From Ignavibacteria bacterium (GTDB taxonomy: Bacteria > Bacteroidota > Ignavibacteria > Kapaibacteriales > UBA961): 40,572 nucleotides of DNA. The first letter of the stretch is position 1. Every line of letters starts with the position of its first letter. The notes beneath the pieces are model-generated. The model was not told the origin of the DNA, made no database searches, and saw nothing but the letters and a program-made list of their open reading frames with translations. The stretch spans positions 1-40,572 of the forward strand of contig CANLII010000022.1 in the NCBI GenBank assembly GCA_947491315.1, read 5' to 3'. This document shows, one piece after another, positions 5,121 to 8,618 of the stretch. The translations under genes and the position numbers were made by a program.

Positions 5121-5202
5121 GGATTGAGAAGAATACTGAGAATATGACTATTGCGAGAACAAAAATGGTATTTTTTCGTAAATTCGCATCACAAATTTAA
5201 TT

Positions 5203-5286
5203 GCCCGGATGGCGAAATTGGCAGACGCGCTATATTCAGGTTGTAGTATTCGAAAGGATGTGCAGGTTCAAGTCCTGTTCCGGGCA
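5203..5286 (+). tRNA. tRNA-Leu (anticodon CAG)
   Basis: An 84-nt class II tRNA. The acceptor arm pairs 5203-5209 (GCCCGGA) with 5279-5285 (TCCGGGC), with discriminator A at 5286. The anticodon stem 5230-5234/5242-5246 encloses a 7-nt loop with CAG at 5237-5239, so it reads CUG. A variable arm and the T-arm GGTTCAAGTCC follow. The 3' CCA is not encoded. Translating through it gives the familiar artefact peptide starting MAKLADAL, which must not be taken as protein. A TATTTTTT run about 30 bases upstream may be its promoter element. Confidence 0.95.
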
Positions 5287-5290
5287 CGCT

Positions 5291-6435
5291 ATGTTCCAAC
5301 CCGAACTGAAAGGGTTCTACTATCGGGGATATATTTCTTTTTTCTTCTGATTCCATTCTTTTCTTCCTACTCTCAAACTCCTGATCTTCGCTCGGCTTTC
5401 CAGAAAGGCAAACAAGCCATGAGTATTGGTGAATATGCCAAAGCAATTCAGTATTTCGAAACATGGACTCTCGCCATGCCAAAAGATGCTCAAGCTTTCG
5501 TTCATCTTGCATCATGTCAGGCAAGAATGGGCAAAGACAGCGCAGTTATTTTCGCGCTTGAACAATCATTGCAGGCCGGACTCAATGAAGTGTTTTTGAT
5601 TGAACAAGACACCATTCTCAGACAATTCATTCAATCGAAATCGCAACTCGCAATGAATTTGTCTTCGGCATTTTGGGGTTCAGACAATGCATGGACCGCT
5701 TTGATTCAAAATGCACATGAGCAGTCTGATCAAAGGCGATTTCCCATTGCTTTCGCGGAACAAAAAAGACTCGCCAGATATCGCATTTTATTTCCCAAGA
5801 ACTATGATTCAACAAAAACATATCGTGCCATAGTACTTTTGCATGGGAATGGACTCGAACCTGTTTTTATGCTGAAATGGGCCGAACGATTTGAATTGAA
5901 GGATCATATCATCATCGCTCCCGAGGCACCCTATATGGCATTCAAGGAATCCATCCAATCGGGAGCCATGAAATTATCGGGTAGAGGTGAGGATCTTTCT
6001 TTCCCGGATTCCTTGCAAGAGAATGTGATCAATCAAACGGCAGAATGGTATGTATCAACACTGAATCAAGCGAAAAAAACATTACCAATTTCAAATGATC
6101 CACAGATTGTGATGGGTTTTTCCCAGGGCGGATTCTTTGCATCTGTTTTGATGAGCCGATATCCTGAGTCATTCTCAAGTGCCATCACATTATGCGGAAG
6201 CATGTTTCCAGAAGGAAGAATCGAGGAACATCTCGCAAAGGTGAAATCTCTCAATCGCGATATACTCATTGTGCATGGTCGGCAAGATGCAACTGTCCCC
6301 TTTTCGGTTGCCGAATCATTTTCCAAGCAATTGTTGAATGCACAAATCAATCATCGATTCATTCCCTTCGATGGTGGACATTGGCCGGCTGATGATCTCT
6401 TGGATGAAATCAAAGATTGGATTGAATCACATTAA
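5291..6435 (+). CDS. exported TPR / alpha-beta hydrolase (esterase-like), 5' end frameshifted
   Basis: Probable periplasmic or exported serine hydrolase. A TPR-like helical pair (segment coded by about 5380-5600) precedes an alpha/beta-hydrolase domain of the phospholipase/carboxylesterase type. The nucleophile elbow is GFSQGG with Ser at 6121-6123, the acid is in VHGRQDATVPF and the His in GGHWPADD. The 5' end is abnormal. In the main frame there is no ATG, GTG or TTG between the end of the tRNA (5286) and ATG 5419, yet a signal-peptide-like stretch (LLIPFFSSYSQ) is encoded there. An ATG at 5291 opens a 19-codon frame ending at TGA 5348-5350; a -1 shift at 5338-5344 joins it to the main frame, giving about 381 residues. 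Alternatives are one missing T, a non-standard start, or initiation at 5419. The stop overlaps the convergent vWA gene by 4 nt. Confidence 0.7.
5338..5344 (+). promoter_or_regulatory. candidate -1 frameshift heptamer (T TTT TTC)
   Basis: In the frame opened by ATG 5291 the codons read TCT TTT TTC TTC TGA, so 5338-5344 fits the X XXY YYZ slippery pattern and a stop codon follows one codon later. A -1 slip enters the long hydrolase frame in the middle of its signal peptide. The same T6 run is also a classic place for a one-base sequencing loss, so function is unproven. Confidence 0.3.
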
Positions 6436-8618
6436 ATCAAACCACTTCTTTTGCGCAGGAACCATTCGATGGCAAAAGCTGAAATTGCAATCATCAAGAG
6501 CCACAAATTATTCCACAATGCTATTTCTGATTCTCTCACGATCGATGTTTGATTGAATCTTGGATGCTTTTTCAAATCTTCAATAAATCCTGAAACCGTA
6601 TTCGGGGTATAGAATTTCCCTCCCGTGATTTCAGCCATGGATCTTAATAATGGAGCATTCATTTTCAGATTCAGATATTCGGCTGATTCTGCTCCGATGA
6701 TGAATCTACCATCATCCTTTCCTAAAACACCGCCTTTACTTGCCGATCCTTGATAGAAATAATCACCTGCAGGTAAACCTGAAATGGATGCCGAATATCT
6801 ACCTGCGCCCATATTTGCCAGTCTGATTTCTCGCTTCGTACCGGGTCCGGAAATATTCACAGATACTGTTGCATCATCCACAGGATCAAGAGAAGCATTA
6901 TATACTTGTGCAATCATCTCAACCTTTTCTCCACCGATATAGAATTTTCTGGAAGATCGAATCTTGACGAGTTTTTCTTTTTCCGAAGCACCAATCCATT
7001 GAATGCTCTGATCAATGAATGAGGACAAAATATCGGGTGATTCACTTGATCCACGAGCAATATCGGGTGCCATGCCGAGTAATTTCCAGCGATAGATTCC
7101 ATAACCAAGAACAGCAAGAGAACGATTCCCCGCAAATGTGCGCGTCATGATCAGTGGCTCGGGTACAGGAGAAGAACCGATGCGAATGCTCGAAAGAATC
7201 TCAGATTCTGGCTTTACATCAATGAATGTCTCTGTCTTGAAAATCGGCGGTAGCGAATTCCACAATTCTTTGTCACGCTCATCACCATTGATGCGCATGA
7301 TCGGACTCGATATTCCACTTTCTTGAATATCGGGAGTTACACTATATTCTTGCTGAGATGAAGAAGTGACCGAAAATGGAAGAAATGGTTCCAAGACTTT
7401 GAGTTTCTGATAATCAACGGATTGAGAAGCTATAAACATGATCGGCTTTCCCTGCTCCATTTCCTTCTTGATCATCTGCATGATCGAAGCAGGTGTGGAG
7501 GCAATCGGAAATCCTATAAGTATGACGGACTCAGCATCTGCAAGCGATTGAGCAGTTGGCGCAGGAGGATAAAATTCGGTTCCCTGTTTATGTATATGCA
7601 TCTTGATCGTGGATTCCGGTATGCGTTCCAAAACCGATTTAATGAATGTGACATCAGGTGAAGGCGAACCGGCAAATACACTGATGATGCGCTTTTGCTT
7701 AAGCACTTTCATGAATTCCGACAATTCATTGTTTTTCAGCGTGAGTTCATTGCCTGATGTAGAGACTCTTGCGGTGATTTTGTGAATTCCCTGCTGAGTC
7801 GGAATGGTTTGGACAGATACAGAATAAGTTGAGATTCCGGGTTTTAGTGAGATTTGTTCTTTGCCAATCTGCGCTCCATTATCATATACCGTTACTATTG
7901 CTTGAGATTCATTCGGAAATCCTGTCGCTCGAATGGTCACCGCAATTGGTACTTTCATTCCGGCATAGACAATTTCATTCACCAAAATAGACTGTACTGA
8001 AGCATCTTTAGGGTCGAGTGAATCGCCAATTCCAACAGTGAATATTGGTTTTCCAAAATATTCAGACTCATACATCGGATTGGCTCCGGCATTCATAGCT
8101 CCATCCGTGAAAAGGATTGCGGCCTGGACGGCATCGGATTCATCAGCTTCATTGAGAAATTTGAATGCCTTAGTGATATTGGTATATAAACTCTTTGCGG
8201 GGATAGAATCAGCTTGTGAAAGCGAAGAAATATTCCCTTTGACATCTTCGCCAAATATCACGATTTCAATATCATCTTCATCCAGACTCTCCAGTTTTGC
8301 CGATGCCAAAGCTTGTTTCATGGCTTTCGCTCGATCAATGCTGCCATCCTTTATTGCCATTGACAAAGATTTATCAATTACGATTGCCAATCGAGGATCC
8401 GATAGTGAAGCGCGAATCATCGATAAGACAGGTTCAAATAAAGCAAAGAGAATCAGCGACAAAGCCAAAGCCCGCAGAAAACCAAGCATGAAGCGCCTCA
8501 TTTTTCCGAGTGGAGGATTCGTCACATGATAAGACCACCAGGAAAGAGCAATTCCTGCCAAAGCACAAAGTGCAAAAACCCACCAAAAACCTGTTATGCC
8601 GAGTGTATAGGAATTCAT
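6432..8618 (-). CDS. membrane-anchored vWA-domain protein
   Basis: A 728-residue envelope protein. Two N-terminal membrane segments (about 8-28 and 42-62) precede a von Willebrand A domain with MIDAS motif DKSLS (Asp82, Ser84, Ser86) and the later FTDGAMN aspartate. Beta-rich Ig-like regions follow (about 210-310 and 540-650), with a glutamine-amidotransferase-like stretch between them, and a C-terminal membrane helix (LWLLMIAISAFAIEWFL). This order matches the large BatA-like or amidotransferase-like vWA membrane proteins common in Bacteroidota and Chlorobiota, whose exact role is not established. The long domain between the N- and C-terminal helices should be periplasmic. It is transcribed alone, divergently from the GAF protein gene, across about 200 bases. 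Its stop overlaps that of the hydrolase gene. Confidence 0.78.
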   Translation of the reverse strand: MNSYTLGITGFWWVFALCALAGIALSWWSYHVTNPPLGKMRRFMLGFLRALALSLILFALFEPVLSMIRASLSDPRLAIVIDKSLSMAIKDGSIDRAKAMKQALASAKLESLDEDDIEIVIFGEDVKGNISSLSQADSIPAKSLYTNITKAFKFLNEADESDAVQAAILFTDGAMNAGANPMYESEYFGKPIFTVGIGDSLDPKDASVQSILVNEIVYAGMKVPIAVTIRATGFPNESQAIVTVYDNGAQIGKEQISLKPGISTYSVSVQTIPTQQGIHKITARVSTSGNELTLKNNELSEFMKVLKQKRIISVFAGSPSPDVTFIKSVLERIPESTIKMHIHKQGTEFYPPAPTAQSLADAESVILIGFPIASTPASIMQMIKKEMEQGKPIMFIASQSVDYQKLKVLEPFLPFSVTSSSQQEYSVTPDIQESGISSPIMRINGDERDKELWNSLPPIFKTETFIDVKPESEILSSIRIGSSPVPEPLIMTRTFAGNRSLAVLGYGIYRWKLLGMAPDIARGSSESPDILSSFIDQSIQWIGASEKEKLVKIRSSRKFYIGGEKVEMIAQVYNASLDPVDDATVSVNISGPGTKREIRLANMGAGRYSASISGLPAGDYFYQGSASKGGVLGKDDGRFIIGAESAEYLNLKMNAPLLRSMAEITGGKFYTPNTVSGFIEDLKKHPRFNQTSIVRESEIALWNNLWLLMIAISAFAIEWFLRKRSGLI

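Follow-up and report, generated by a model that had tools for sequence, protein, structure and literature searches.

The window, that is the whole stretch of 40,572 nucleotides that was analysed, carries on its forward strand a tRNA-Leu(CAG) gene and, behind it, the open frame of a hydrolase. The features of the locus are listed below.

5159 to 5202, forward strand: conserved block 5' of the tRNA-Leu, beginning ACAAAAATGGTATTTTTTCG..., presumably the promoter of the tRNA.
5203 to 5286, forward strand: tRNA-Leu(CAG) as delimited by Infernal (ARAGORN places the end at 5287), Rfam RF00005 with 47.3 bits; under the explanation favoured below, it would also be the in-frame 5' part of the hydrolase gene.
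5209 to 5211, forward strand: ATG in the hydrolase frame close to the 5' end of the tRNA, an alternative start that would give MAKLADALYSG...
5260 to 5262, forward strand: GTG in the hydrolase frame, placed between the variable arm and the T arm; this is the start we prefer (M-QVQVLFRARYVPTRTERVLLSG...).
5291 to 5350, forward strand: short ORF of 19 codons, from ATG 5291 to TGA 5348-5350, the same in UBA961.
5308 to 5310, forward strand: GAA codon; the corresponding codon is an in-frame ATG in JZJ.24, F1-20, and K_Offshore.
5329 to 5376, forward strand: core and tail of the signal peptide, read as IYFFFLLIPFF-SSYSQ in the hydrolase frame (hydropathy peak 2.72).
5338 to 5344, forward strand: T TTT TTC heptamer in frame with ATG 5291, present in UBA961 and absent in JZJ.24.
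5371 to 6435, forward strand: mature hydrolase, with a TPR-like N-terminal part and an alpha/beta-hydrolase domain (Pfam, profile match, alignment).
6121 to 6123, 6286 to 6288, and 6379 to 6381, forward strand: presumed catalytic Ser, Asp, and His (alignment).

The encoded enzyme matches PF02230 (Abhydrolase_2) with a score of 61.8 bits against a gathering cut-off of 23, and its profile matches are TPR and carboxylesterase structures, the TPR being the N-terminal part. The columns of S254, D309, and H340 are invariant across 15 aligned proteins, and we take these residues to be catalytic from what is known of the family. No NCBIfam match came near a curated cut-off. The signal-peptide-like stretch is recognised through the hydropathy of its core, whereas the charge of its n-region varies with the start that is chosen. 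Compared with the carboxylesterase/phospholipase family of PF02230, the protein has the same domain and the same presumed Ser-Asp-His triad, and it adds the TPR-like N-terminal part and the signal-like stretch. The gene ends at 6435 and overlaps tail to tail, by four bases (6432 to 6435), with a convergent gene at 6432 to 8618 on the reverse strand. The enzyme family is ordinary; the beginning of its gene is not.

Indeed, the hydrolase frame contains no ATG, GTG, or TTG from 5287 to 5418, the first being the ATG at 5419. The earlier note had described an exported protein without an ordinary start behind the tRNA, and the empty frame scan bears this out. Its broader statement that the gene has no start in frame holds only if the tRNA is left out, because the frame is already open ahead of the tRNA-Leu and stays so right through the intact tRNA, in which ATG 5209, TTG 5218 (a further standard start), and GTG 5260 all lie in frame. 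Across the genome, open frames of at least 200 codons lie behind three of the 35 tRNA genes found, one of the 35 (a tRNA-Phe) being uninformative as it ends at a contig end; the distance from the tRNA to the first standard start is 19 nt for tRNA-Glu, 46 nt for tRNA-Cys, and 131 nt for tRNA-Leu(CAG). In the Rfam scan the tRNA alone exceeded its cut-off, with a weak rteR match below its own. The promoter scan returned four matches against 2.8 (sd 1.6) in shuffled sequences and the terminator scan one match against 1.3; between the tRNA and the hydrolase gene of the window no terminator-like site was detected by scan.

We then compared the locus with its close relatives. UBA961, which represents a second species, has 94% protein identity, an identical tRNA-Leu, and the same six Ts followed by TGA. 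The block at 5159 to 5202 is near-identical across the window, UBA961, F1-20, and K_Offshore. Three further congeners share the tRNA neighbour, namely JZJ.24, F1-20, and K_Offshore, and in each of them an ATG of the hydrolase frame stands 21 nt behind the discriminator base, at nt 106 in tRNA numbering; in the window and UBA961 this codon is GAA, and no standard start follows the tRNA in the hydrolase frame before nt 217. The congeners G001 and G004 (41% identity) have an ATG of their own and no tRNA within the fetched stretch. From 5419 on, the window and UBA961 differ with a dN of 0.027 and a dS of 0.256, i.e., with a low dN/dS over 337 codons. From 5287 to 5370, dN is 0.050 and dS 0.047, but these values rest on four changes, which is not enough for a judgement. 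The 57 nt between the tRNA and the heptamer (5287 to 5343) hold two differences, both non-synonymous in the hydrolase frame, so this segment appears to be without coding constraint; as a test between frames the segment was set aside as uninformative, both substitutions being non-synonymous in the two frames alike.

Two peculiarities emerged among these congeners. In F1-20 (L041, 2461 to 2484) and K_Offshore (L065, 2918 to 2941), the hydrolase ATG lies inside a strong terminator-like hairpin, AAACCCGCA-CTA-TGCGGGTTTTTT, with nine pairs and then a T run just behind the tRNA-Leu; it looks like the terminator of the tRNA, and start codon and termination would thus share bases. In JZJ.24 (L040, 177 to 261), the tRNA-Leu, close to a contig end, is a hybrid whose acceptor strands are mismatched, its 3' part resembling the CAG tRNA of the relatives and its 5' part unlike it. 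Judging from this sequence, the hybrid is probably a misassembly, and for JZJ.24 the sequence behind the tRNA alone was used in the comparisons.

The most informative orthologues are those of the family of genome G016, in which seven of the eight genomes have the hydrolase gene. In six of the seven (SKYG14, KatS3mg040, SKW269, KatS3mg039, SKW43, and SSF3), the hydrophobic core starts at most one codon from the tRNA end, in the frame continuous with the tRNA. In all six the tRNA reads ...V QVRLLFRA in this frame, followed by LIIAGAVVSGVAQ in SKYG14, LVLVAAMLLPLQAQ in KatS3mg040, LCVLVVISAIASAQ in SKW269, LGMLILFCPLAAQQ in KatS3mg039, LFVCAFAASLGAQ in SKW43, and LFIGVVLLLLSNPAIAQQ in SSF3. Despite the differing DNA, the highest hydropathy over 10 residues falls, among the three frames, in the tRNA-continuous one in 6/6 cases (2.36 to 3.43; the next best frame reaches 2.34, in SSF3). 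KatS3mg039 and KatS3mg040 are single-contig genomes.

Ordinary starts are scarce in these six genomes. SKW43 has no ATG, GTG, or TTG from the tRNA end until nt 151 (tRNA numbering), i.e., none before the core. The sole start behind the tRNA is a mid-core GTG in SKYG14 (nt 103) and SKW269 (nt 100). In KatS3mg040 (GTG, nt 88), KatS3mg039 (ATG, nt 91), and SSF3 (GTG, nt 100), a start lies at the front of the core or inside it, leaving no positive charge (K or R) before the core; calling a start usable in three of these five genomes is a matter of judgement. The starts common to the six genomes, the window, and UBA961 lie only within the tRNA-Leu, at ATG nt 7, TTG nt 16, and GTG nt 58. The ATG corresponding to 5209 occupies an identical position in 8/8 loci that read straight from the tRNA. 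In the seventh genome, MAG-305, the gene is in phase with the tRNA and a GTG at nt 151 lies between the tRNA and its own core.

The survey was extended to 35 of 42 hydrolase loci, those left out being seven weak ones (L074 to L080). The pairing of tRNA-Leu and hydrolase is widespread: for 22 of the 35, a tRNA-Leu lies on the same strand and no more than 1.5 kb upstream of the match, one of them being the JZJ.24 hybrid. When 197 genomes of the class were searched with the tRNA-Leu peptide, 80 of them yielded a total of 81 matches; open frames of at least 250 aa were found in eight of the 81, and six of these are this hydrolase. The non-hydrolase loci inspected were G082, G035, G073, and G100. 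Two were rejected as further cases: the long frame of G082 runs upstream only, and that of G035 (L082, reverse complement of 966 to 1778, open through a tRNA-Leu(CAG)) is glutathione-peroxidase-like, as named by eye, with an ATG of its own. The frame through the tRNA and its starts are ordinary for this tRNA type and also occur in relatives without the overlap, so openness of the frame alone means little.

Other loci show further arrangements. ZLKRG46 is in phase with the tRNA, but with an ATG before the core; in ZLKRG33 and SW_29 the tRNA is followed by the gene in a different phase and with an ATG of its own; and tRNA and gene are separated by a T-run hairpin and a stop in SRR5676438_bin.0 and NC_groundwater_806. 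On a tree of 15 rows, hand-picked from the loci and with the "start in tRNA" label assigned by us, at least two changes (gains or losses) of this state are required, which places it in two separate branches of the class.

Taken together, these comparisons suggest that the hydrolase coding sequence begins inside the tRNA-Leu gene. This explanation has the best support because the orthologues in the family of G016 leave almost no alternative. The case is strong for that family, where initiation inside the tRNA is likely, and moderate for the window, where we hold it probable on balance that translation starts within the tRNA-Leu(CAG) gene, with GTG 5260 as the most likely codon. The start problem can thus be explained without a frameshift. 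The 3' part of the tRNA would encode the charged n-region of the signal peptide of the enzyme, and translation would run through the T arm and the acceptor strand into the hydrophobic core and then into the mature enzyme. GTG 5260 is more likely than ATG 5209 judging by the shape of the signal peptide: from the GTG, the n-region would have nine residues in the family of G016 and 23 in the window, and from the ATG 26 and 40, respectively. Although the downstream ATG is gone in the window lineage, dN/dS relative to UBA961 is low from 5419 on.

Some points weigh against a start inside the tRNA. A folded and processed tRNA should be poorly accessible for initiation, and the 23 residues predicted for the window would make an unusually long n-region. 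The case of the window is less certain than that of the family of G016, as its clade comprises two genomes here, the n-region is long, and the stretch from the tRNA to the core is without measurable constraint. The possibility that the tRNA is a pseudogene or relic was rejected: it scores above the Rfam cut-off, and a second CAG tRNA turned up neither among the 35 tRNAs of the window genome (G000; five tRNA-Leu with five anticodons) nor among ten long tRNA matches in G016 (again five tRNA-Leu with five anticodons). Thus, its function as a tRNA is most likely required, and it is no dispensable relic.

If the gene starts inside the tRNA, processing of the tRNA 3' end would cut the start codon off the hydrolase message. 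The message would then be translatable only before the 3' cut, making tRNA and message exclusive fates of one molecule. From the sequences we propose, tentatively and with more doubt than confidence, that a single transcript has two such fates: when cut, it would give the only leucine tRNA of the cell that reads CAG, and when left uncut, it would serve as mRNA for an exported hydrolase, with both the start codon and the n-region of the signal peptide made of tRNA sequence. In that case, the output of hydrolase would report on tRNA maturation. Use of the tRNA start, preference of GTG over ATG, competition with tRNA maturation, and export are all what we infer. The suspicion in the earlier note of a joint tRNA-mRNA transcript was, in our judgement, right.

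Four other explanations were considered for the window. The earlier note had pointed to a programmed -1 frameshift, in which translation from AUG 5291 would slip, by programme or fortuitously, on T TTT TTC and yield MFQPELKGFYYRGYISFFFLLIPFFSSYSQ... We confirmed that ATG 5291 opens 19 codons up to TGA 5348, that the canonical heptamer at 5338 to 5344 lies in this frame with the stop one codon on, and that its -1 frame is the hydrolase frame; moreover, the site is identical in UBA961 and the product would carry a charged n-region. However, TTTTTTC occurs 14 times on each strand of the window (28 on both), which makes the heptamer weak evidence, and the best fold of the next 80 nt has -7.7 kcal/mol and begins 45 nt downstream (single fold, no shuffle control). 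Site and architecture are kept only in UBA961: JZJ.24 has neither a counterpart of ATG 5291 nor the heptamer, F1-20 and K_Offshore have no need of slippage, and the six genomes of the G016 family would be left unexplained. We therefore regard slippage as unlikely.

A non-standard start codon behind the tRNA (ATA 5329, for example), possibly on an mRNA left almost leaderless by tRNA 3' processing, is similarly improbable. Leaderless messages exist in many bacteria and ATA 5329 is retained in UBA961, but a signal peptide starting there would be without positive charge. Moreover, in the six genomes of the G016 family the first codon behind the discriminator base is CTG, CTT, or CTC, of which CTG alone is known as a rare start.

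The start could also have been truly lost in the window lineage, leaving a decaying gene with little expression or a cytoplasmic form from ATG 5419. The GAA in place of the ATG of the sister species and the seeming lack of coding constraint in 5287 to 5343 speak for such a loss. Against it, the presumed catalytic residues and the low dN/dS over 337 codons are kept in two species, and the signal core and the DLRSAF motif 5' of 5419 are retained, with changes relative to JZJ.24 at third positions. Orthologues starting at the Met of 5419, which in the earlier note would have removed the need for any shift, were not seen among the close relatives, where the signal stretch and (D/E)LRSAF are kept upstream; ATG 5419 as the start is disfavoured by this conservation. 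We give decay little credence. Finally, a base missing from the assembly at 5338 to 5343 (the one T lost in sequencing of the earlier note) would suit a homopolymer run in a draft genome and is highly improbable, since the same run of six Ts and TGA recur in UBA961, a second species assembled separately.

Among known systems, E. coli tufB is a bacterial tRNA-mRNA cotranscript with a protein gene behind tRNA genes. As in that type, the protein gene here lies directly behind a tRNA, presumably on one transcript; in the tufB type, however, the start codon follows the tRNA and both products can come from one transcript, whereas here processing would remove the start. In animal mitochondria, as here, tRNA and protein genes share bases: a study of metazoan mitogenomes states, in its passage on overlaps, that these usually involve tRNA genes, with atp8/trnG overlaps of 5 to 6 bp (PMC8245539). 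As far as that passage goes, the mitochondrial overlaps concern a few bases at gene ends, while in this bacterium 27 nt (from GTG) or 78 nt (from ATG) would be shared, including the start codon and a working n-region. Phage attachment sites also overlap tRNA genes, and the part of the source that deals with them describes no protein start in a tRNA (PMC10865867). In the open-licence literature, we found no precedent for a bacterial protein gene starting in a tRNA, which is weak evidence of novelty.

If this explanation is correct, a bacterial tRNA gene present in a single copy also supplies the first codons of an exported protein, and in some environmental bacteria one DNA stretch would serve both a tRNA and a protein start. 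Gene annotation would normally discard such a reading as a spurious tRNA ORF. A signal peptide may then recruit ready-made sequence from a neighbouring RNA gene, and how the cell splits one transcript between tRNA and mRNA would be testable.

Further observations concern transcription and processing around these tRNAs. At L069, around 2798, an ATG lies two bases after the discriminator base of the tRNA, so that tRNA 3' processing would give a near-leaderless mRNA. In five genomes of the G016 genus, 8 to 9 nt separate tRNA-Ser from tRNA-Leu and nothing lies between tRNA-Leu and the gene; given this tight spacing, one precursor RNA would be the simplest source of tRNA-Ser, tRNA-Leu, and hydrolase, and a promoter inside a tRNA is conceivable there as well. 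Upstream of the tRNA-Ser, four genomes (L115 to L118) carry a TATTTTTG motif, which in our view resembles what we take to be the TAnnTTTG promoter element of Bacteroidota.
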